Positions 5,098 to 63,676 of a DNA stretch of 64,000 bases are shown in pieces. Under the pieces are notes generated by a model that worked only from the letters and a program-made list of their open reading frames with translations, was not told the DNA's origin and ran no database searches. Every line of letters begins with the position of its first letter. Within the stretch, counting starts at the first letter, position 1. The translations under genes were made by a program, and so were the position numbers. The DNA comes from Rhodococcus spelaei. GTDB lineage: Bacteria > Actinomycetota > Actinomycetes > Mycobacteriales > Mycobacteriaceae. Location of the stretch: NCBI RefSeq assembly GCF_006704125.1, contig NZ_VIGH01000001.1, positions 372,001-436,000 of the forward strand, written 5' to 3'.

Positions 5098-5865
5098 ATG
5101 GTCGAGATCAAGACGGAACGTGAAGTGCAGGCGATGCGGGCCGCGGGACGAGTCGTCGCGGCCGCACTCGACGCCGCGCGCGCGACCGCCGCGGTCGGGG
5201 TGAGCCTGCGTGACCTCGACGCGGCCGCGGCCGAGACGATCCGGGCGGCCGGCGCCACGCCCGCCTTCCTCGGCTACCGCCCCGACTGGGCCCCGAGCCC
5301 GTTTCCAGGCGTCGTCTGCGCCAGTGTCAATGATGCGGTGGTGCACGGCATTCCGACGGACTACCGGCTTGTGGACGGTGATCTCGTCAGCCTCGACTGC
5401 GGAGCGTTCCTCGACGGCTGGTGCGGCGACTCCGCAGTCAGCTTCGTGGTGGGCGAGGCCGACCCCGAGGACCTCCGGCTGATCGCCGACACCGAGACTG
5501 CGCTGGCGCGGGGCATCGAGGCGGCCAGGGTGGGAAACCGGATCGGCGACATCGCCGATGCCATCGGCACTTTCGCGCGATCCCAGGGGTGGGGCCTGCT
5601 CGCCGATCACGGCGGCCACGGCATCGGACGTGCCATGCACGAGGACCCGGACGTGCCCAACGAGGGACGGCCCGGTCGAGGCATGAAACTTCGGCCCGGC
5701 CTGGTGCTCGCTCTCGAACCCATGCTCATCCGAGGCGGCACCGACGACTACCGGCACGACGCCGACGGGTGGACCCTCCGCACGCTGGACGGAACGAGGG
5801 CTGCGCACAGCGAGCACACCGTCGCGATCACCGCGGGCGGCCCGGTGGTCCTGACCGCTGCGTGA
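5098..5865 (+). CDS. map: type I methionine aminopeptidase
   Basis: A 255-residue enzyme that removes N-terminal Met from new proteins. All five metal ligands of the pita-bread fold are present: Asp100, Asp111, His174, Glu207 and Glu239, in LVSLDCGAFLDGWCGDS, HGGHGIG, LALEPM and HSEHT. This numbering closely matches the E. coli enzyme. It lacks the N-terminal SH3-binding or zinc extension of some actinobacterial Maps. ATG 5098 is preferred over GTG 5089 because the protein then begins in the usual MVEIKTEREV way. Being paired with its own XRE repressor suggests a conditional, second Map rather than the ribosomal-operon copy. Confidence 0.93.
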   Translation: MVEIKTEREVQAMRAAGRVVAAALDAARATAAVGVSLRDLDAAAAETIRAAGATPAFLGYRPDWAPSPFPGVVCASVNDAVVHGIPTDYRLVDGDLVSLDCGAFLDGWCGDSAVSFVVGEADPEDLRLIADTETALARGIEAARVGNRIGDIADAIGTFARSQGWGLLADHGGHGIGRAMHEDPDVPNEGRPGRGMKLRPGLVLALEPMLIRGGTDDYRHDADGWTLRTLDGTRAAHSEHTVAITAGGPVVLTAA

Positions 5866-6179
5866 CCCGCGGGACGGTCGAGGTGGCGGAGAACGCTCTG
5901 CTCACACCCGCCGCAGGCCGAGACGCTCGATTCCGCGATCCACGCACAGGTTTCGACGAAATGTGCACACTTTCGGCTGGGTTGTCAGCACTTTCCGCGA
6001 ATTCGCCAGCATCGAAAGATATTTCGCGCGAAGTTGATGTTGTCGACGTCGCGTGTCTACGAGTTCCCCCGGTTCTGCGTGCCATGATCAATCATGGCCT
6101 GGCTTCGTTGCGGCAGTGGGCAAGTTCAGAGAACGCAGAGCGGTAGGCATGCGTGCCTACCGCGAAATGCGGTGGTGCG
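5866..6179. other. 314-bp intergenic region with several palindromes
   Basis: I see no convincing gene here. The DNA is more AT-rich than its surroundings. It contains the palindrome TTCGCGCGAA (6023-6032), an 18-bp inverted repeat GCCATGAT-CA-ATCATGGC (6081-6098) and a 22-bp hairpin immediately before the next gene (6141-6162). It is most likely the regulated promoter of the pseudokinase gene at 6180. Confidence 0.6.
6141..6162. promoter_or_regulatory. hairpin/palindrome CGGTAGGCA-TGCG-TGCCTACCG
   Basis: A perfect 9-bp stem with a 4-nt loop, ending 17 nt before the ATG at 6180. It could be an operator, or a structured leader that hides the ribosome binding site (GGTGG) just downstream. The alternative GTG start at 6153 would lie inside it, which argues for the ATG at 6180. 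Confidence 0.55.
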
Positions 6180-7601
6180 ATGAGCTCTACGGAGAAGCAG
6201 AGGAAGCCGGTGGCGGCGTCCGCGGCCACGCCGTCGGAGCCACCCACGTTGCCGCGTCCCCCGGTGGTGGAGCCGTCACGGGTGCTGTGCCCGGGGGCCG
6301 TTCTCCTGGACGGACGATATCGGTTGCTCGCGCCCTGCGGCGGAGTCGACGGCCTCGAATTCTGGCACGCAACGGACTTGGCGGTCGGCCGCGAAGTGGC
6401 GCTGACCATAGTCGCTTCCGGCACCGACCCGAGCGAGTCGGCGGAGATGTTCGGTCGGACGATCTGGTTGTGCCGGATCAGATCGGCTGCGGTCGCGCGG
6501 ATTCTCGACATGGTGGGCACGGATTCCCTGTCTCTCGTGGTCGCCGAGTGGATACCGAGCGTGTCTCTGCGCGAGGCCGTCGGGGGCGAGACGTCGCCGT
6601 CGGGAGCGGCCAGGGCGGCCACCGCGTTGGCCGAGGCGGTGGCGGAGGCCCACGAGCTCGGTACCGTGCTGTCGCTGGACGGCGCGAGTCGGGTGCGGGT
6701 GAGCCTGGACGGTGCCGCCTACCTGGCGTTCCCCGGCACACGGGCCAACGCGCGTCCCGAGGTGGACCTGCACGGACTGGGCCGCGTGCTCGGTGCGCTG
6801 ACATCCGGATCCCTGGACACCGCGCCGCTTCCCGAGGGCACGCCGCCGGAACTGTCGACCGCGATCGCCGAACTGCTGCGTCCAGGCACGACGACGACCG
6901 CGGCCGCGACCGCCGACACCCTCGCCGACGTCACCGAGACGGCGCGAGCGGCGGCGGCCACCGTCGTCACCCCGGCGGACGCCGACACCATGTCGCCACG
7001 CCGGCTGGCGATCCTGTCGGCGGCCGCCGTGACGACCGTGCTGGTACTGGGCACGATCGGATGGTTGATCGGCACCGCTGCGGTCACCTCTCCGGACCCG
7101 GAGGCTCCCGGACTGGCGGCGGTCCTGCCCGTCGCCACCGCAGCGGCCGAACCTGCACCGCCACCTGCGGTTCCTGTCATTCCCGTCGGTGCGTCGGTGT
7201 TCTCGCCTCAGCAGTTCCCCGACAACTCCGCCGACGCGGGGCTGGCGATCGACGCGAACTTCGCCACCGGGTGGTCCACCGACTCCTACCGGCAGCAGTT
7301 CCCGGCGTTCAAGAACGGCGTCGGCCTGGTCGTCGCGCTGCCGCCGGACACGGTGACGCGCGCGGTGTGGATCGTCTCGTCCACACCCGGTGCGCGAGTG
7401 GAGATCCGGACGCCCCCGCCGCCGGGCGGACGGCTCGAGGACACGACGGTGCTCGGCGAGGGGGTGCTGGGTCCGCGTGACACCACCATCGCGCTGCGGG
7501 ACGCGGGGCCGGCGTCCGGCCTACTCGTGTGGATCTCGGGACTGACCGGCGTCGAGGGGTCCTACCACGCCGATCTCGCCGAGATCGGCTTCACCAGCTG
7601 A
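6180..7601 (+). CDS. membrane pseudokinase with C-terminal discoidin-like domain
   Basis: A 473-residue protein. Residues ~45-235 follow a Ser/Thr-kinase layout (LLDGRYRLLAPCGGVDGLEFWHATDLAVGREVALTIVA) but key motifs are absent: the VAIK lysine position is Thr, and there is no HRD or DFG. One membrane helix follows (LAILSAAAVTTVLVLGTIGWLIG), then a Pro/Ala linker and an extracytoplasmic beta-sandwich resembling F5/8 type C domains (VFSPQQFPDNSADAGLAIDANFATGW in two parts). The architecture recalls the C-terminal half of mycobacterial MviN (Rv3910), which binds FhaA, but here it stands alone. Inference: a signalling or scaffold protein linking an outside ligand to the cytoplasm. Confidence 0.75.
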   Translation: MSSTEKQRKPVAASAATPSEPPTLPRPPVVEPSRVLCPGAVLLDGRYRLLAPCGGVDGLEFWHATDLAVGREVALTIVASGTDPSESAEMFGRTIWLCRIRSAAVARILDMVGTDSLSLVVAEWIPSVSLREAVGGETSPSGAARAATALAEAVAEAHELGTVLSLDGASRVRVSLDGAAYLAFPGTRANARPEVDLHGLGRVLGALTSGSLDTAPLPEGTPPELSTAIAELLRPGTTTTAAATADTLADVTETARAAAATVVTPADADTMSPRRLAILSAAAVTTVLVLGTIGWLIGTAAVTSPDPEAPGLAAVLPVATAAAEPAPPPAVPVIPVGASVFSPQQFPDNSADAGLAIDANFATGWSTDSYRQQFPAFKNGVGLVVALPPDTVTRAVWIVSSTPGARVEIRTPPPPGGRLEDTTVLGEGVLGPRDTTIALRDAGPASGLLVWISGLTGVEGSYHADLAEIGFTS

Positions 7602-7616
7602 CCTCCCGGCGGCCGG

Positions 7617-8003
7617 CTACTCGGCCGACCCGTACGGCCTGGCGATGATCTCCATGGCGTGCCCTGCCGGATCGCTGAAATACACGCCGCGGCCGCCGTG
7701 ATTGGTGTTGATCTCGCCGGGCAGCCGCATCTGTGGGTCTGCCCAGTGCGCGATTGCGCCGTCGAGGATGCGGGCATAGATCCGGTCGAAGGCCTCGTCG
7801 TCGACGAGGAAGGCGTAGTGCTGTATCTGAATCTCGTCGACGGGTGGTTCGGCGAAATGGAGCTGCACACCCTCGTCGAGTTCGACGGTGGTGAACGGGC
7901 CCCACGGCGTCGGCTCGGGTAGTCCGAAGAGGGTGGCCAGGAAGTCGGCCGAGTGCTGACGGTCTTTCGCCGCGATGATGGTGTGGTTGAACGTGATGGT
8001 CAC
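7617..8003 (-). CDS. VOC/glyoxalase-family protein
   Basis: A 128-residue single-domain protein of the vicinal oxygen chelate superfamily: FNHTIIAAKDRQHSADFLATL at the start (read in two halves), IQHYAFLVDD in the middle and GVYFSDPAGHAMEIIARPY at the end, with His and Glu placed as metal ligands. The substrate is unknown. GTG 8003 has AAGGGG 6 nt upstream; longer upstream starts lack support. It is divergent from the ECF sigma gene, an association often seen for sigma factors carrying a SnoaL-like C-terminus. Confidence 0.82.
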   Translation of the reverse strand: MTITFNHTIIAAKDRQHSADFLATLFGLPEPTPWGPFTTVELDEGVQLHFAEPPVDEIQIQHYAFLVDDEAFDRIYARILDGAIAHWADPQMRLPGEINTNHGGRGVYFSDPAGHAMEIIARPYGSAE

Positions 8004-8118
8004 AGTGACCCCTTGATGTTCGACGCCTCCATGCCTGACGCAGTCCGTCATCGACACGCGACGCTGCCGACATTCAACCGGCCCGGAAGCGGGCTCGCAA
8101 GCCCGCCCGGCGCCGACC

Positions 8119-8145
8119 GATGAGTTTTGCGCTCGCGCGGGGTCT
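8119..8145 (+). promoter_or_regulatory. putative ECF-type promoter (GATGAGTTTT-N12-GGTCT) of the sigma gene
   Basis: GATGAGTTTT at 8119-8128 and GGTCT at 8141-8145 are separated by 12 nt and end 35 nt before the sigma-factor start. The same two blocks with exactly the same spacing occur before the doxX gene at 15698-15724. This suggests one sigma factor reads both and that the sigma gene is autoregulated. Confidence 0.55.
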
Positions 8146-8180
8146 GTACTCCAGAGACCGATCACGGAAGGGTGAGGTGC

Positions 8181-9182
8181 ATGACCGAGAGCGCAGTTCG
8201 TGGAGAGTTCGCCCCGCTGGCGGAGCCGTACCGACGGGAGTTGCTGGCCCACTGTTACCGAATGTCAGGCTCGGTGCACGACGCCGAGGACCTGGTCCAG
8301 GAGGTGTACCTGAAGGCGTGGCGGGCCTACGACCGGTTCGAGGGCCGCTCCTCGCTGCGGACCTGGCTGTACCGGATCGCGACGACCACGTGCCTGACCG
8401 CGCTCGAGAGCAAGGGCAAGCGACCGTTGCCCACCGGCCTCGGCGCGCCCAGCTCCGACCCTGCCGACGACCTCGTCGAACAGCGGGAGGTGCCGTGGCT
8501 CGAGCCGATTCCCGACACCCTGCTCGGCACCGGAGCGAGCGATCCCGCGGTGGTCGCGACGTCCCGCGAGAGCATGAGGCTGGCGCTGATCGCGGCGCTG
8601 CAGTTCCTGCCGCCGAAGCAGCGGGCGGTGCTGATCCTGCGTGAGGTGCTGGCCTGGCCTGCGGCGGACGTGGCCGAGCTGCTCGGCACCAGCACCGCGG
8701 CAGTCAACAGTGCGTTGCAGCGGGCCCGCGCGCAGATCGACCAGGCCGCGCCGACGGAGGACGCCGTCGTGGAACCGGTCCGGCCGGATCAGCGTGAGCT
8801 GCTCGACCGGTACATGGCGGCGTTCGAGACGTACGACATGGCGGCATTGAAGGAACTGTTCACCGAGGACGCGGTCTGGGAGATGCCGCCGTTCGTCGGC
8901 TGGTACCAGGGTCCGGACGCGATCCGTTCTCTCATCGAGAACAACTGCCCGGCACAGGGGCCCGGCGACATGAAGCTGATTCCGACGGTGTCGAACGGGC
9001 AGCCGGCGTTCGCGATGTACATGCGCGACCCCGACGGCGTCCACCGCGCGTTCCAGCTGCAGGTGGTCACGCTGGGACCGTCCGGGATCGGTCACGTGAC
9101 CGCGTTCTTCGACGTCGCGCTGTTCGCCAAGTTCGGTCTGCCCGAAGTGTGGGGCGCTCCGTCGGCTCCGCTCGAGTCATGA
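8181..9182 (+). CDS. ECF sigma factor with C-terminal SnoaL-like domain (SigG/SigJ type)
   Basis: A 333-residue protein. Region 2 is at ~14-80 (CYRMSGSVHDAEDLVQEVYL, FEGRSSLRTWLYRIA), region 4 at ~130-190 (LQFLPPKQRAVLILREVLAW, LLGTSTAAVNSALQRARAQI). An NTF2/SnoaL-like domain at ~205-320 (RYMAAFETYDMAALKELFTE, DAVWEMPPFVGWYQGPD) replaces the need for a separate anti-sigma factor. No anti-sigma gene is next to it. Start ATG 8181 is 6 nt after a strong GGAAGGGTGAGG site. Its stop overlaps the next gene's start (ATGA), so the two are co-translated. Confidence 0.9.
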   Translation: MTESAVRGEFAPLAEPYRRELLAHCYRMSGSVHDAEDLVQEVYLKAWRAYDRFEGRSSLRTWLYRIATTTCLTALESKGKRPLPTGLGAPSSDPADDLVEQREVPWLEPIPDTLLGTGASDPAVVATSRESMRLALIAALQFLPPKQRAVLILREVLAWPAADVAELLGTSTAAVNSALQRARAQIDQAAPTEDAVVEPVRPDQRELLDRYMAAFETYDMAALKELFTEDAVWEMPPFVGWYQGPDAIRSLIENNCPAQGPGDMKLIPTVSNGQPAFAMYMRDPDGVHRAFQLQVVTLGPSGIGHVTAFFDVALFAKFGLPEVWGAPSAPLES

Positions 9183-9784
9183 CCGGCAGCGCGGTGGTGT
9201 GGCCGGTGGCCGACCCGGTCGCACTGCTCGAGCGGGCAATCGGTTACACGCTCGGCAGCCTGCAACTGGTGACGCCGCAGGACATGTCGGCGCCCACGCC
9301 GTGTCGTGAGTGGGACCTGCGGGCACTGCTGGCACACATGAACGACGCCCTCGCGACCCTGCAGGAGGCCGTCGACGATCGGACGGTGACGCTGGTCCCC
9401 GACCCGGTGGCGCCCGATCCCGATGCCGATCCCGTTGCCGCCCTACGGGATCGGGCCTGTCATCTGCTCGGGTCCTGGGCCGGGTCCGGTGACCCCGCGC
9501 CCATCCGGATCGGCGAGGTCCCGGTGCTGGCGGACATCGTGCCCTCCGCCGGGGCGCTCGAGGTCGCGGTACACGGGTGGGACGTGTCCGTCGCGTGTGG
9601 TCGCCCCCGTCCGATACCGTCCGCCCTCGCGGGCGAATTGCTCACCTGCGCAGCGCTATTCGTCACGGATGCGGACCGGTCGGTGCGCTTCGGCCCGCCC
9701 GTCGAGGTGTCGGGAGATGCGGGGGCGGGGGAGCGGTTGCTGGCGTTCCTCGGGCGTGATCCGCGTGGTCTACCCCGGCCTTAA
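9179..9784 (+). CDS. DinB-superfamily protein, TIGR03086/maleylpyruvate-isomerase-like
   Basis: A 201-residue protein with the four-helix DinB-like fold used by mycothiol-dependent enzymes: PTPCREWDLRALLAHMNDAL near residue 42 and ALEVAVHGWDVSVACGRP near residue 128 supply the metal-binding His residues. TIGR03086 proteins are of unknown substrate. Translation is coupled to the ECF sigma factor through an ATGA overlap, so it is probably part of that stress response. It converges on the TetR gene, and the two stop codons share TTAA at 9781-9784. Confidence 0.8.
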   Translation: MTGSAVVWPVADPVALLERAIGYTLGSLQLVTPQDMSAPTPCREWDLRALLAHMNDALATLQEAVDDRTVTLVPDPVAPDPDADPVAALRDRACHLLGSWAGSGDPAPIRIGEVPVLADIVPSAGALEVAVHGWDVSVACGRPRPIPSALAGELLTCAALFVTDADRSVRFGPPVEVSGDAGAGERLLAFLGRDPRGLPRP

Positions 9785-10341
9785 CCGAGCGACAGGTCGA
9801 TCAGCCGCTGCGCCGCCAGGTCGGTTCGTTCGATGTCGCCGGTGATGAGCCGATCCAGCAGGATGCCACGAAGGCCGGACACGAGCAGCGTTGAAACCAC
9901 GGTCGCCTCGCCCACCTCGGATCCGAGCCGCACGAGTACACCGGTGAGCGAGGCAACCAGTGTTTCGATGGCTGCCGTGGAGTACTCGACGAACGGTCCC
10001 TGCTGCACGCACGCGGTGCCCATCACCTGCAGTAGTACCCGCGTATGGGTGGAATGCTCGCCGCTCGTCAGCGCAGCCCACAACTCCCGCATCCTGGCCG
10101 GGAGCATCGCCCGACTCGACACGTCGGCGAACCGTTCTTCGATGTCGGGCCGCTGCGTTGCCAGTGCCTGCGCGAGCAACTCCTCCTTGCTGCCGAAGTA
10201 GTGGATGAGCATTCGCGAACTCGTGCCCAGCGCCGCCGCGAGGGGGCGCAGGGACAGGTCGGCGAGACCGCGTTCGCCGATGTAGTCGATTACCTGGGCG
10301 AGAATTTCCGCGCGTTTCGCGTGGTCGGGTGGGCGAGCCAT
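9781..10341 (-). CDS. TetR-family regulator
   Basis: A 186-residue protein. The N-terminal helix-turn-helix is clear: AEILAQVIDYIGERGLADLS then LRPLAAALGTSSRMLIHYFG followed by SKEELLAQAL. The ligand domain that follows is a standard all-helical type. It is divergent from a beta-ketoacyl synthase gene across 40 bp, and two 18-bp palindromes with the half-site CTGTAGCG flank and overlap that gap. Inference: it represses the ketoacyl synthase and itself, with an acyl-type ligand most likely. Confidence 0.88.
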   Translation of the reverse strand: MARPPDHAKRAEILAQVIDYIGERGLADLSLRPLAAALGTSSRMLIHYFGSKEELLAQALATQRPDIEERFADVSSRAMLPARMRELWAALTSGEHSTHTRVLLQVMGTACVQQGPFVEYSTAAIETLVASLTGVLVRLGSEVGEATVVSTLLVSGLRGILLDRLITGDIERTDLAAQRLIDLSLG

Positions 10342-10348
10342 GGGTTGA

Positions 10349-10366
10349 CTGTAGCGACCGCTACAG
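10349..10366. promoter_or_regulatory. TetR operator 1, CTGTAGCG-AC-CGCTACAG
   Basis: A perfect 8+8 bp inverted repeat around a 2-bp centre, 8 nt upstream of the TetR start codon in the divergent promoter region. Confidence 0.7.
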
Positions 10367-10381
10367 GTATTTGTTGTCATC

Positions 10382-11635
10382 GTGACTGTAACGATCGCTT
10401 CAGAAACTGCCCGTCGTGTGCGGCCCGTCGTGGCCACCGCTGTTGCGGCGACGACGTCGATCGCGGACTGCATCGACGACACGTGGGACGGTTTGCTGCA
10501 CGGCCGCAGTGGGATTGCCCAACTCGAAGACGAGTTCGTGGACCAGTACGACCTCCCGGTACGCATCGGCGGCAAGTTGCAATCGCTGCCATCGGCGAGG
10601 TTGACCAGGGTGGAACATCGCAGGCACTCGTTCGTCGAACAGATGGCCCTCGTGCTCGGTAGGCAGGTCTGGGCCGAAGCGGGCAGTCCCGAGGTCGACC
10701 GTGAACGACTCGCGGTGGTGGTCGGTACCGGGCTCGGCGGCGGCGACGCCCTGGTCGACGCGGTCGATGCGCTTCGCGGCGGCGGGTACCGAAAAGTCTC
10801 GCCGATGTCCGTTCCGATGGTGATGCCCAACGGGCCGGCCGCGACTGTTGGTCTCGAAATCGGAGCCAAGGGAGGTGTTTTCGCACCGACCTCGGCCTGT
10901 TCGTCGGGATCGGAGGCTATCGCGCACGCCTGGCGACTGATCGCCACGGGTGAGGCCGACGTCGTCGTCGCCGGTGGTGTCGAAGGACAGATCGGCGCCG
11001 TCCCGATCGCGAGTTTCGCCATGATGCGCGCCATGAGCACCCGAAATGGAGAACCGGATCGCGCGTCACGCCCATTCGACCGCGACCGAGACGGCTTCGT
11101 GATGGGCGAGGCAGGCGCACTCATGGTGCTCGAGTCCGAAGCGCACGCAAGGGCCCGTGGGGCAGAGGCATTCGGCCGAGTGCTCGGGGCCGGCATCACC
11201 TCCGACGCATTCCACATCGTGGCTTCCGACCCCGACGGAATCGGGGCCGCTCGTGCGATGCGCAAGGCGATCGAGAGCGCCGGCCTCAGCCCCTCGGACA
11301 TCGACCACGTCAACGCTCACGCGACGTCCACCCCGGTGGGCGACGCGTCCGAAGCGAACGCGATCATGGCGGTGACCAAGGGCGCGACGGTCTATGCGCC
11401 GAAGTCGGCCCTCGGTCACTCGATCGGGGCGGTCGGCGCCCTCGAGGCGATCCTCACCATGTCGACGATTCGTGATCAGGTTGTCCCGCCGACCTTGAAC
11501 CTCGAAAACCAGGATCCTGCAGTAGATCTGGACATCGTCTCAGGTTCCGCGCGCAATCAGCGGGTAGACTACGACCTGAGCAATTCGTTCGGCTTCGGCG
11601 GCCACAACGTCACCCTGGCCTTCGGTCGGGCGTAG
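10382..11635 (+). CDS. beta-ketoacyl-ACP synthase II-type (KasA/KasB-like)
   Basis: A 417-residue condensing enzyme of the fatty-acid/mycolate FAS-II type. The catalytic set is complete: Cys173 ([10 protein letters not shown]), His313 ([11 protein letters not shown]), Lys341 and His346 ([11 protein letters not shown]). These positions nearly match KasA of M. tuberculosis. It stands alone without acpM, fabD or the other kas gene, and has its own TetR, so it is probably a conditional condensing enzyme, not the core one. The start is uncertain: GTG 10382 has no ribosome binding site and the second operator lies over it, so transcripts may be leaderless; GTG 10418 is an alternative. Confidence 0.9.
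10386..10403. promoter_or_regulatory. TetR operator 2, CTGTAACG-AT-CGCTTCAG
   Basis: An imperfect copy of operator 1: same length, with one changed base in each arm, centred 37 bp away. It overlaps the first codons of the ketoacyl synthase gene, a position that would block transcription start or early elongation. Confidence 0.55.
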
Positions 11636-60978: not shown

Positions 60979-61452
60979 ATGACGCCGGACCTCGGCCCGA
61001 GGACCCGCGACGAGGCGATGGTCCGTGCGGCGATCGAGGCCGCTCGCGCCGCCGACGCGGCGGACGTTCCGGTCGGTGCAGTGATCTTCGACGCGGACGG
61101 CGTGGAACTGGCCCGCGCCGCCAACGCCAGGGAAGCGACCGGCGACCCCACCGCGCACGCCGAGATCGTGGCGTTGCGGGCGGCGGCCCGCGTGCACGGC
61201 GACGGCTGGCGGCTCGAGGGCGCGACCCTCGCGGTCACCCTGGAACCGTGCACGATGTGCGCGGGTGCGTTGGTGCTCGCCCGGGTGTCGCGGGTGGTCT
61301 TCGGCGCATGGGAACCGAAGACGGGTGCGGTCGGGTCGCTGTGGGACGTCGTCCGCGACCGGCGGCTCACCCACCGGCCGCAGGTCCGCGGGGGAGTGCT
61401 CGAACCCGAGTGCGCCGAACTGCTCGAGGAGTTCTTCCGTCTGCAGCGCTGA
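60979..61452 (+). CDS. tadA: tRNA-specific adenosine deaminase
   Basis: A 157-residue deaminase that makes inosine at the wobble position of tRNA-Arg(ACG), itself encoded at 57555. Zinc ligands His60-Ala-Glu62 (PTAHAEIVALR) and Cys91-x2-Cys94 (LEPCTMCAGALVLARV) are intact. ATG 60979 follows the previous stop directly, so translation is coupled. tRNA-Ser(CGA) starts 46 nt downstream. Confidence 0.94.
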   Translation: MTPDLGPRTRDEAMVRAAIEAARAADAADVPVGAVIFDADGVELARAANAREATGDPTAHAEIVALRAAARVHGDGWRLEGATLAVTLEPCTMCAGALVLARVSRVVFGAWEPKTGAVGSLWDVVRDRRLTHRPQVRGGVLEPECAELLEEFFRLQR

Positions 61453-61497
61453 CCACGCGATTTAGCGTCAGCGCCGGAGTCGGGTAAAGTCACCGGC

Positions 61498-61588
61498 GGT
61501 GGCGTGTCCGAGCGGCCTAAGGAGCACGCCTCGAAAGCGTGTGACGGGTAACCCCCGTCCGAGGGTTCAAATCCCTCCGCCACCGCCA
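61498..61588 (+). tRNA. tRNA-Ser (anticodon CGA), integration target
   Basis: A 91-nt class II tRNA with encoded CCA. Acceptor GGTGGCG/CGCCACC, anticodon arm CACGC-CTCGAAA-GCGTG, variable arm GACGGGTAACCCCCGTC. Reads UCG codons. Its last 27 nt recur at 62933-62959, marking site-specific integration into this gene; the tRNA stays intact. Confidence 0.96.
61562..61588 (+). repeat. attL-type copy of the 27-bp direct repeat (inside the tRNA)
   Basis: This copy forms the T-arm 3' half, acceptor strand and CCA of tRNA-Ser(CGA). Confidence 0.85.
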
Positions 61589-61590
61589 AA

Positions 61591-61626
61591 GCCTCCCGCC
61601 TGTTTACACAGGTGGGAGGCTTTTTT
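61591..61626 (+). terminator. tRNA-Ser(CGA) terminator (element-borne)
   Basis: GCCTCCC-G-CCTGT / ACAGG-T-GGGAGGC stem with TTAC loop and a TTTTTT tail, directly after the left repeat. The right repeat is followed by its own hairpin at 62966. Confidence 0.9.
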
Positions 61627-61657
61627 CGTGCCCGGATGCGCTCTGATTGGCCCCGTC

Positions 61658-61676
61658 TGCCCACACTTTGCCCACA
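61658..61676 (+). repeat. two TGCCCACA repeats, 11 bp apart (left end)
   Basis: Copies at 61658-61665 and 61669-61676, same orientation. They match the array at 62822 near the other end of the element; candidate integrase arm-type sites. Confidence 0.6.
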
Positions 61677-61971
61677 TCTGCCGGTGAGTGAGAGGCGACC
61701 GAGAGGCGCGGGAGGGCATGCACCCCTTGCGGTGGTAGGCGTGGTCAAATCGACTATGACCTGCACCACATGCGTACGTACGGTTTGCCCATCGCGCGCC
61801 AGCTGTCGCAGCTGCGGTATTAGAGGCCGCTCACGTCCACTGGGAGGCACTACCGGACGCTTGCCTATATGACGGGGACCGATCGCGCACTGTGCGTAAT
61901 GTTGGGCAGCTGAGGGGTGAACTTGCAGGTCAGGGGCACGTAACGACATGGGTGTTATTTCGAAATAGGTC

Positions 61972-61999
61972 TTGCACTACCGGACAAACGCCGTACATT
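61972..61999 (+). promoter_or_regulatory. promoter of the toxin-antitoxin pair (TTGCAC-16-TACATT)
   Basis: A -35 TTGCAC at 61972-61977 and -10 TACATT at 61994-61999, 35 nt before the antitoxin start. The region between the left end of the element and this promoter shows no convincing gene. Confidence 0.5.
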
Positions 62000-62033
62000 C
62001 GTTAGTGAACACCACGGAGGGAGGCACCACCCC

Positions 62034-62303
62034 ATGACTACCAAGACTGAGAGAGTTGAGCTGCGGGTAGCGCCGCAGAGTCACGAACAGATACAAGCAG
62101 CAGCGGAACGAGTCAACGAATCGACATCTGAATTCGTTCGGAACGCGGCTTTGGATAGGGCTGACAGGGTACTGGCTCTGTCGAGTCGTACCTTGATGCC
62201 AGCAGAGCAGTTCGATGCGCTCATCCACGCACTAGACGTCGCTGATGACGCCCCGAACCTCGAGAAGCTTGCAGCGGAACCGAGGCGGTTCGCCAGGCAA
62301 TGA
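62034..62303 (+). CDS. DUF1778/TacA-like ribbon-helix-helix antitoxin
   Basis: An 89-residue protein. The N-terminus TERVELRVAPQSHEQIQAAA followed by ERVNESTSEFVRNAALDRAD is a DUF1778 ribbon-helix-helix domain that binds its own operator. The C-terminal part (LMPAEQFDALIHALDVADDA and PNLEKLAAEP) is the toxin-neutralising tail. A strong GGAGGGAGG site precedes ATG 62034. Overlaps the toxin gene by ATGA. In TacA/TacT systems the antitoxin covers the active site of the acetyltransferase and the complex represses transcription. Confidence 0.9.
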   Translation: MTTKTERVELRVAPQSHEQIQAAAERVNESTSEFVRNAALDRADRVLALSSRTLMPAEQFDALIHALDVADDAPNLEKLAAEPRRFARQ

Positions 62304-62821
62304 CATGGGTTTCCAGTGGCCTCACAGCAGAGCATGACGTCGACGAGTTTGACTGCGGCGTCGATCCTCTGAATCGATGGCTGATCCAGAGTGCTTGGCA
62401 GGCACATAAACGCGATACCGCACGGACCTACGTCTGGACTCAGCGTGGCGATAGTCGGGTGATGGCGTACTTCGCCATCACTCCGACGCAGGTAAATCGC
62501 GAGGAAGATGGGATCAGCAAAACGGTTGCTGCCCGTCTGGATCGGGTACCGGCGTTCCTCATTGCGAAGTTGGCCGTGGAAAAATCCATCCAAGGTGACG
62601 GCAACGGTAAGCAGCTATTGCTCGATGCCATCGGAAGGATCGTCGGCGTAGCTCAGCTGGGCGGCGGCCGGCTCATTGTCGTAGATGCGATCGATGACGC
62701 CGCTGCGTCCTTCTATGAGAAGTACGACTTCATTCCCGTCCAGAACACCCCTCGGCGTCTCATCATGAAGATTGAGACAGCGAGGAAGGTGTTCCGAATC
62801 GACATGCCCTCTTCTGAGTAG
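62300..62821 (+). CDS. GNAT-family TacT-like toxin
   Basis: A 173-residue acetyltransferase. Typical TacT features are the start FDCGVDPLNRWLIQSAWQAH, the central KLAVEKSIQGDGNGKQLLLD with the acetyl-CoA loop QGDGNG (98-103), and Tyr139 in ASFYEKYDFIPV at the catalytic tyrosine position. TacT toxins acetylate the amino acid on charged elongator tRNAs and stop translation. The ATGA overlap with the antitoxin is standard. It is in full length and frame, so the pair is probably active. Confidence 0.9.
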   Translation: MTWVSSGLTAEHDVDEFDCGVDPLNRWLIQSAWQAHKRDTARTYVWTQRGDSRVMAYFAITPTQVNREEDGISKTVAARLDRVPAFLIAKLAVEKSIQGDGNGKQLLLDAIGRIVGVAQLGGGRLIVVDAIDDAAASFYEKYDFIPVQNTPRRLIMKIETARKVFRIDMPSSE

Positions 62822-62850
62822 TGCCCACACATTGCCCACACTTGCCCACG
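62822..62850 (+). repeat. three TGCCCACA-type repeats, 10-11 bp apart (right end)
   Basis: Copies at 62822-62829, 62833-62840 and 62843-62850 (the last is TGCCCACG), all in the same orientation as the left-end pair. Confidence 0.6.
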
Positions 62851-62932
62851 AAACCCGGTGAGCTGTGGTGACTCGCACTGATGTGATTATGCAGGTCAGC
62901 GCGATATCAACCCTCTGGCCAGGAGGTCTGGA

Positions 62933-62959
62933 AGGGTTCAAATCCCTCCGCCACCGCCA
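62933..62959 (+). repeat. attR-type copy of the 27-bp direct repeat
   Basis: Exact copy of the tRNA-Ser(CGA) 3' end (61562-61588) with no tRNA around it. Confidence 0.85.
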
Positions 62960-62965
62960 CGAAAA

Positions 62966-62990
62966 CCTCCGACCGATTACCGGTCGGGGG
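62966..62990 (+). terminator. hairpin after attR, probably the original tRNA-Ser terminator
   Basis: CCTCCGACCG-ATTAC-CGGTCGGGGG (one G-T pair) followed by TCTTCT. Its position right after the displaced tRNA end fits an insertion that separated the tRNA from its native terminator. Confidence 0.75.
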
Positions 62991-63094
62991 TCTTCTGCGT
63001 TCGGGGTCGTCCCGCACACCCCCGCTGTCACAACGACGCTGCACGTCCAACGCCCGCGCGACGGCGGCAGAAGGGGTGAGCGGGCGGTCGCGAA

Positions 63095-63676
63095 CTACGC
63101 GACCTCGGCGAGCGCGGCGTCGATCCAGCGGACCACCTCCGTGCCGGCCCGGTCGAGGGCCCGCACGTCACGTTGCGCCTTGGCGACCATGATGGCGCCC
63201 TCGACGGTCGCGATCGCGGTGGTGGCGACGGACTCGGCGCGGTCCGGGGCCAGCCCGCGACGTTCGAGCTCCGCTGCGATGTCGCTTTCCCAGGCGGTGA
63301 ACGCCGCGCCCGCGACGGTTCGGGCCGCGTCGAAGTCCCCGCCGGCGAGTGCGGCCGCCGCGACCGGGCAGCTCGCGTCGAAGTCGGAGTCCAGCAGCTG
63401 GCGGCGGAAGAGGTCGACGATCGCCTTCAGGGTCTCGCCGGGTCCGCGTTCCTCGAGGTTCGCGGCGATCATCGAGCCCATCAGCCGGCCCGCGAGCAGC
63501 GTGGCCTCCTCGGCGAGCTGGGTCTTGCCGCCCGGGAAGTGGTGGTAGATCGAGCCACGCGGCGCCTGCGAGCGCGTGATGACGTCGGCGAACGAGGTGG
63601 CGTCGACGCCCCGTTCCCGAAACAGCGTCACCGCGCTGGCCAGCATCCGGTCGCGGGTGGTGCCGCTGTGTTTCAC
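63095..63676 (-). CDS. TetR-family regulator (AcrR/LmrA-like)
   Basis: A 193-residue protein: TRDRMLASAVTLFRERGVDA then TSFADVITRSQAPRGSIYHH and FPGGKTQLAEEATLLAG form the DNA-binding domain. The C-terminal TetR_C domain has ASCPVAAAALAGGDFDAART with a Cys seen in LmrA/YxaF-type members. GTG 63676 has GAGG upstream. It is divergent from the YceI-family gene, its likely target. Confidence 0.88.
   Translation of the reverse strand: MKHSGTTRDRMLASAVTLFRERGVDATSFADVITRSQAPRGSIYHHFPGGKTQLAEEATLLAGRLMGSMIAANLEERGPGETLKAIVDLFRRQLLDSDFDASCPVAAAALAGGDFDAARTVAGAAFTAWESDIAAELERRGLAPDRAESVATTAIATVEGAIMVAKAQRDVRALDRAGTEVVRWIDAALAEVA

Follow-up and report, generated by a model that had tools for sequence, protein, structure and literature searches.

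A 1.37-kb unit at tRNA-Ser(CGA) in Rhodococcus spelaei, holding a TacA/TacT-like pair, is probably the remnant of a phage satellite

The window analysed herein is a stretch of 64,000 nt from the genome of Rhodococcus spelaei (contig NZ_VIGH01000001.1), and towards its right-hand end lies a tRNA-Ser(CGA) gene (61498–61588, plus strand; identified with ARAGORN), which appears to have been the target of an insertion and is intact after it. The 3′ end of this gene, at 61562–61588, recurs on the same strand at 62933–62959 as an exact 27-bp direct repeat, with the two copies, regarded here as left and right attachment cores, lying 1371 bp apart. On a crude equal-base estimate, the chance expectation for such a pair is approximately 5e-11. 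Between the repeats the GC content is 0.58, compared with around 0.69–0.76 in the adjoining 400-base windows, and only two genes are called, both of them intact, specifying a DUF1778 antitoxin (62034–62303) and a GNAT toxin (62300–62821). No integrase was detected between the repeats by inspection of ORFs or by integrase matching, and neither a capsid nor a replication gene is present in the 1.37-kb unit. The first-pass annotation of this DNA, made from the letters alone, had described the exact tRNA-end copy 1.37 kb downstream, the lower GC, the toxin–antitoxin pair as the sole intact genes and the lack of an integrase, and all four are borne out.

The antitoxin (89 aa, plus strand) is of the DUF1778/TacA type, matching the Pfam model TacA1 (PF08681) with an E-value of 1.8e-10 and 41.1 bits (cut-off 21); against solved relatives its best E-value is 3e-5, and that for KacA is 0.01. 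Its ORF overlaps by 4 bases that of the toxin, a 173-aa plus-strand product with QGDGNG and FYEKY stretches, which was placed with GNAT toxins of the TacT/KacT kind by a phmmer search of solved proteins, recovering 15 distinct PDB sequences at E ≤ 1e-3 (E-values from 1e-21 to 1e-10), KacT included. Pfam GNAT models score just under their cut-offs on the toxin, no NCBIfam model for it was found, and no PADLOC model matches the pair. As in TacAT and KacAT systems, a DUF1778-type antitoxin thus stands upstream of an overlapping GNAT toxin, but the pair differs from them in being 57–58 % identical, at best, to the closest TacAT relatives found, with its toxicity predicted by relationship. Going by the named family, the activity predicted for TacT is acetylation of aminoacyl-tRNA, with TacA as its neutralising partner; such a pair would favour retention of the unit and may act against phages. 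The earlier suggestion of an island held by addiction is a plausible hypothesis. Searching IMG/VR for TacT relatives gave seven pattern stretches, none of which was confirmed. With regard to regulation, a scan of 61400–63100 gave no sigma-70-like promoter. A 12-bp palindrome seen by eye, TATTTCGAAATA (61956–61967), lies roughly 70 bases upstream of the antitoxin start and is a possible operator, whilst the region from about 61690 to 61950 has no counterpart among the matches listed from a DNA search of 401 genomes of the family.

Both ends of the unit also carry arm-type repeats, a feature absent from the first-pass annotation. On the left there are two copies of TGCCCACA (61658–61676, plus strand), starting at 61658 and 61669, which is +95 and +106 from the GGGTTC of the core. 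On the right, TGCCCAC occurs three times (62822–62850, plus strand), with starts at 62822, 62833 and 62843, or −112, −101 and −91 from the GGGTTC of the right core, and the first of these begins one base after the toxin stop codon. From their sequence and placement we infer that these repeats bind an integrase. The Gordonia phage Finkle, which has 25 core bases in common with the unit, a similar hairpin and a related tyrosine integrase, displays TGATCAG at −124, −113, +95 and +106, with no TGCCCAC there; other letters at nearly equal offsets are as expected of integrase arm sites. The minus strand of the left arm region (61650–61700) can be read, tentatively, as the last codons of a lost integrase, SPADVGKVWAD, resembling SPANVGKVWAD in a related element (L076). 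This candidate tail spans at most a dozen codons, and the arm DNA itself fixes most of the residues that agree; asserting an integrase relic firmly was considered and dropped.

A hairpin follows each of the two cores. That behind the left core (61588–61623, plus strand) is an inverted repeat of 94 % with a T run next in sequence, and is probably a replacement terminator borne by the element. The one behind the right core (62969–62987) is likely to be the native tRNA-Ser(CGA) terminator, given a terminator scan and its resemblance by eye to the hairpin behind the same tRNA in a congener (G005). The earlier claim that each repeat copy is followed by its own terminator stands insofar as both are followed by a hairpin, but the scan (two sites found versus 0.9 expected) reported only the second, and that as a minus-strand site. 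Hairpins of the CTG..CAG type, resembling that of the elements, are also found behind tRNA-Ser(CGA) in the congeners G002, G003, G001 and G004 (L004, L005, L006 and L008), and in these same four the left-end arm pattern is absent behind the hairpin. The hairpins are therefore not diagnostic of insertion, and their use as proof of it was dropped.

Comparison with congeners gives a clearer view of the site. In G005, tadA (91 % identical) is followed by tRNA-Ser(CGA), then by a CCGACCGG..CCGGTCGG hairpin resembling the one behind the right core of the unit, and then, by eye, by the counterpart of the window gene at around 63773. The TetR gene that stands in between in the window is missing from G005, and its neighbourhood is therefore not identical to that of the window. 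The order tadA, tRNA and TetR (65 %) is seen in G001, with 256 bases from the tRNA to TetR. The first-pass annotation had proposed looking for empty sites in related genomes, and the insert is indeed missing at tRNA-Ser(CGA) in both G005 and G001; thus the segment is not fixed in all relatives, as judged by a between-species comparison with one genome per species. Other sequence lies downstream of this tRNA in G003 and G004. G002 (L011, G002:C6) harbours a different insert of approximately 1.2 kb between tRNA-Ser(CGA) and TetR, with ImmA/IrrE-like and membrane-type ORFs (by eye), no arm sites and no second core.

Searches of the family covered a sample of 401 or 301 genomes, with one genome per species. 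A DNA search with the unit (401 genomes, two candidates scored in each) produced matches in 51 of them, R. spelaei included, and the 64 places listed comprise the unit itself, 50 places at its two ends and 13 inside it. For the left end, the pattern sought was the core plus two arm sites, the first arm being allowed at +82 to +112 and the 11-base spacing being fixed. It occurs in 31 of the 401 genomes, and a right-end pattern in 14, whilst reversed-pattern controls for both ends are found in none of the 401. As the arm motif and spacing of the search pattern were derived from the window itself, the perfection of left arms across the set is partly a result of selection. Amongst the left ends, 20 have their first arm at +94 to +98, ten at +102 to +109 and one at +83, and all begin with the same core as the unit. 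The same patterns were found in IMG/VR in two stretches (left end) and three stretches (right end). A tRNA-Ser gene (CGA or TGA; ARAGORN) stands at the left core in 29 of the 31; the stretch from G227 is cut off there, and at the left core of G052 (L206, a 5.8-kb element) no tRNA was found despite the presence of 150 bases upstream, so that this core may itself be a tandem copy, perhaps one amongst several.

The integrase genes of these relatives were identified, amongst ORFs called with a simple script, by matches to the L075 and Finkle integrases, with a second scan against the L075 integrase only. A full-length ORF (372–461 aa) is present near the left end in 18 of the 31 (some 2.2 kb in for G248), and a partial or split one in eight (G017, G080, G118, G305, G052, G214, G372 and G218). 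None was found near the left end in R. spelaei (G000), G073, G365, G096 and G271. The first-pass reading had turned in part on whether any related element with this att core bears an integrase, and such elements exist. One of them, of 10.1 kb (L075, in G078), specifies an integrase with an arm-binding domain, a DNA polymerase/primase, a head maturation protease and a major head protein, and two others (L189 and L204) each have a Phage_capsid protein. Capsid-type genes were scanned for in these three large elements, and their presence in all three indicates that these resemble capsid-forming satellites. Capsid-bearing candidate PICIs and phiRv elements have been described for Mycobacterium (PMC10654092). 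In gene content the scanned relatives fit candidate PICIs and phiRv1/phiRv2-like elements, possessing an integrase and a major capsid gene and residing at tRNA genes. We draw this parallel for the relatives and not for the unit, which differs in having no integrase, replication or capsid gene, and thus has neither the own integrase nor the major capsid and replication gene that mark a candidate PICI.

Right ends with arms were located for 19 of the 31 left ends, and additionally for G096 (one core mismatch) and G003, although the element of the latter, at approximately 19 kb, is left out of the counts for 20 elements given here. No right end could be placed in the stretch covered for G073, G365, G214, G372, G129, G218, G271, G021, G210 and G248, and for G210, G248 and G021 a right end lies on another contig. 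The 20 paired elements form a series of 19.5, 16.3, 11.0, 10.8, 10.1 (three), 10.0, 9.8 (two), 8.9, 8.8, 8.7, 7.6, 6.1, 5.8, 5.7, 3.4, 2.3 and 1.37 kb, the smallest being the unit in the window. The integrase is broken, partial or unfound in all six elements of less than 7 kb, whilst amongst the 14 above 7 kb it is full-length in 13 and split in one (G017). The 2.3-kb element (G080) carries a Fic protein that is 88 % identical to the Fic in the same place of an 11-kb element from another genus (G010), and this is the clearest sign that the miniatures are full elements minus their middle.

Fourteen of the 20 paired elements have a last rightward ORF that stops 110–160 bp short of the right core, by the arms. 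In each element between one and three ORFs, those closest to the right end, were scanned, some with Pfam alone, and a toxin–antitoxin or defence gene was recognised in eight of the 20, an uncontrolled tally and not a test of enrichment. These are TacA in R. spelaei, Fic/SoFic in G080, G010 and G227, AbiD in G064, SocA_Panacea and PemK followed by an unnamed 79-aa ORF in G144, SocA_Panacea in G052, and NYN/HEC-09, on the opposite strand, in G347. Other right-end genes specify a DUF3800 protein (G078), a ClpP-like protease (G017), an HTH protein (G368), a siphovirus Gp37-like protein (G280) and a pterin dehydratase (G305), whilst the right-end ORFs of G118, G235, G359, G330, G175, G027 and G096 match no model. 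These results point to a cargo slot on the attR side of the tRNA-Ser satellites of this family that can hold genes of the Fic, AbiD, Panacea and TacA types. No published description of the 1.4-kb unit, or of such an attR cargo slot, was found in the open-licence literature. The 3.4-kb decayed element of G118 (L210, 1928–3606) has cargo ORFs of 241, 96 and 213 aa, the last of which starts, by eye, like a PIN domain; none of the three matches Pfam, NCBIfam or PADLOC models at E ≤ 1e-3.

The reading preferred here, and probably the correct one as far as sequence comparison can indicate, derives the unit by deletion from a phage satellite that had a capsid gene and resembled the mycobacterial candidate PICIs and phiRv elements. 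It looks like the two ends and the toxin–antitoxin cargo of a virus-parasitising element of around 10 kb, with the other genes, including the integrase, gone. The first-pass view of a minimal tRNA-Ser element, or decayed island, is supported by the two insert-free congeners and by the existence of relatives that bear an integrase and agree with the unit in core and in arm geometry. In the course of events envisaged, the parent satellite would integrate into the 3′ end of tRNA-Ser by means of its own tyrosine integrase, would supply a tRNA end and a hairpin to take the place of the original ones, and would have a cargo slot, often with toxin–antitoxin or defence genes, directly beside its right arm sites. 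Deletion of the integrase gene and of the rest of the parental gene set would then leave attL and its arm sites, TacA/TacT, and attR and its arm sites. The sampled family genomes yielded no full-size satellite whose slot holds this TacAT, and the parent itself is therefore not seen.

A conservative description of such a remnant is that of a cis-mobilizable element (CIME). A CIME lacks integration and transfer genes but keeps attL and attR, and an element that integrates in tandem with it can carry it along (PMC5704250). The unit likewise keeps both attachment sites, at a tRNA 3′ end, and has lost integration and transfer genes, the integrase included, and it has a cousin in Actinophytocola oryzae that stands in tandem behind an integrase-bearing element; at its own site no tandem element was seen. 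It differs in that it seems to derive from a satellite and not from an ICE or IME, is only 1.37 kb in size, and has a cis mobility that is hypothetical. Because core and arms are complete, excision of the unit by a related incoming integrase would be possible, as would its carriage by a satellite inserting in tandem, in the manner of a CIME.

A rival explanation is a unit that is still spreading, i.e. integrase-less ends and cargo moved in trans by the integrases of related satellites or phages, and perhaps co-packaged by them, much as transposases serve MITEs. We consider this unlikely. The complete core and arm set of the unit speaks for it, with mismatches of 0, 0 and 1 in the three right arms, which equals the best integrase-bearing elements and is common to seven of the 13 intact ones, as do other TacT units in which an integrase was not found, in A. 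oryzae (1.65 kb) and Mycobacterium methanotrophicum (3.6 kb, at tRNA-Pro). A precedent exists in the microcin H47 island of Escherichia coli, an integrase-less island whose exchange is reported to depend on host-supplied functions (PMC3191183); like the unit it is repeat-flanked, with no integrase of its own and with mobility functions from elsewhere, but its exchange has been demonstrated and its cargo is unrelated. Against this, intact arms are explained by recent deletion alone, and defective elements show no special upkeep of their right arms, the mean number of mismatches being 2.71 of 24 in the seven defective elements versus 2.15 in the 13 intact ones. Right-arm damage is seen in one arm of G118 and as a missing third arm in G305 and G096, and a poor third arm also occurs in the integrase-intact G175, G330, G368 and G227. 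Furthermore, no second copy of the unit exists in R. spelaei and none was found in the 401 sampled family genomes (best two candidates scored per genome), so that the search for the 1.4-kb unit elsewhere, suggested at first pass, came back empty; sampling one genome per species, there is no sign of independent jumps. No match to the integrase of the related elements was obtained in the R. spelaei genome at E ≤ 1e-5 (ten candidates scored), where the five PF00589 places are on contigs 11, 15 and 16 and none is on that of the window (contig 1), and the idea of a helper integrase in the same genome was dropped. The earlier proposal of a satellite-like element mobilised in trans is hence retained only for its first half, capsid genes in three relatives and a primase and head protease in one pointing to a satellite parent, but with neither a matching integrase nor a second copy in the genome itself, mobility of the unit in trans at present is doubtful. 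MITEs and CALINs are presented as deletion-born hitchers in the literature (PMC11389934). The unit shares with these the retention of ends and the loss of the recombinase, but it is a single copy in its own genome and the 401 of the family, where a MITE-like element would have several recombinase-less copies of ends plus cargo, its ends are those of a site-specific integrase, and it carries protein genes.

Alternatively, the toxin–antitoxin pair may have entered a decayed attachment scar by ordinary recombination, the repeat and arms deriving from a separate, earlier satellite. Pairs of this kind also live elsewhere, as 53 of 55 TacT-relative loci scanned (many spanning only 1.5 kb per side) are without this core or these arms, the exceptions being the locus in the window and one in A. 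oryzae (L111), which has the core only. The toxin, however, ends at the base directly before the arms, just where the last rightward ORF of most paired elements is found, and the 2.3-kb Fic element provides a direct parallel, so that this explanation is very improbable beside that of a satellite remnant. That the repeat arose by chance within native tRNA surroundings, with no mobile element, may be dismissed almost entirely, for although a left-type hairpin stands behind the tRNA without arm sites in four congeners, it would leave the exact 27-bp repeat, the drop in GC, the arm geometry common to integrase-bearing elements and the insert-free congeners to coincidence.

Taken as a satellite remnant, the unit shows what may be left of a worn-down phage satellite, namely arm-bearing ends and an immunity or addiction cargo beside attR. 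The wider pattern, comprising the attR-side cargo slot and the recurrence of miniatures, is the part worth following. A core with arms and a single module is a simple way to find orphan toxin–antitoxin and defence modules, and whether such stubs are dead, or are moved by the integrases of satellites that are still intact, becomes a testable question. It is conceivable, albeit unlikely, that actinobacterial satellites repeatedly shed miniatures of arms plus attR-side defence or toxin genes, which spread by parasitising the integrases, and possibly also the capsids, of intact satellites, as a counterpart of MITEs that uses site-specific recombinases and has immunity genes as cargo.

Outside the family sample, a plasmid DNA search with the unit gave one 73-base match only, and a phage DNA search gave ten records, of which seven align with tRNA-Ser sequence, one aligns with the 5′ portion of the tRNA, and two are phage Finkle. 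Amongst the TacT relatives, the A. oryzae locus contains the core twice, with a toxin 48 % identical to that in the window and an antitoxin recognised by eye. Its TacAT unit (L111 5092–6797, L222) has 1.65 kb between 54-nt repeats of a tRNA-Ser end (94 %), follows, in tandem, an element of 16 kb that has an integrase and resides at tRNA-Ser(TGA), displays a different repeat, GCAGTCTCATTCG, near both ends, and has no PF00589 match inside it. A tRNA is in view at ten further TacT loci, two of which have a clear copy of a tRNA-Pro end (L098 and L103), with a 19-nt copy in L119 and no copy in the other seven. In L098 (M. methanotrophicum, 5449–9135) the unit is 3.6 kb in size, with a 43-nt copy of the tRNA-Pro(GGG) end and TacAT beside the distal copy, and contains no PF00589 match provided that the numbering of contig C1 corresponds to the named record. 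The unit of L103 (a mycobacterium, 5452–11318) measures 5.8 kb and has a 26-nt copy of the tRNA-Pro(GGG) end, an uncalled antitoxin and, by eye, a 102-aa piece resembling the C-terminus of an integrase. Judging by their starts, these two tRNA-Pro units share a protein of 789–795 aa.
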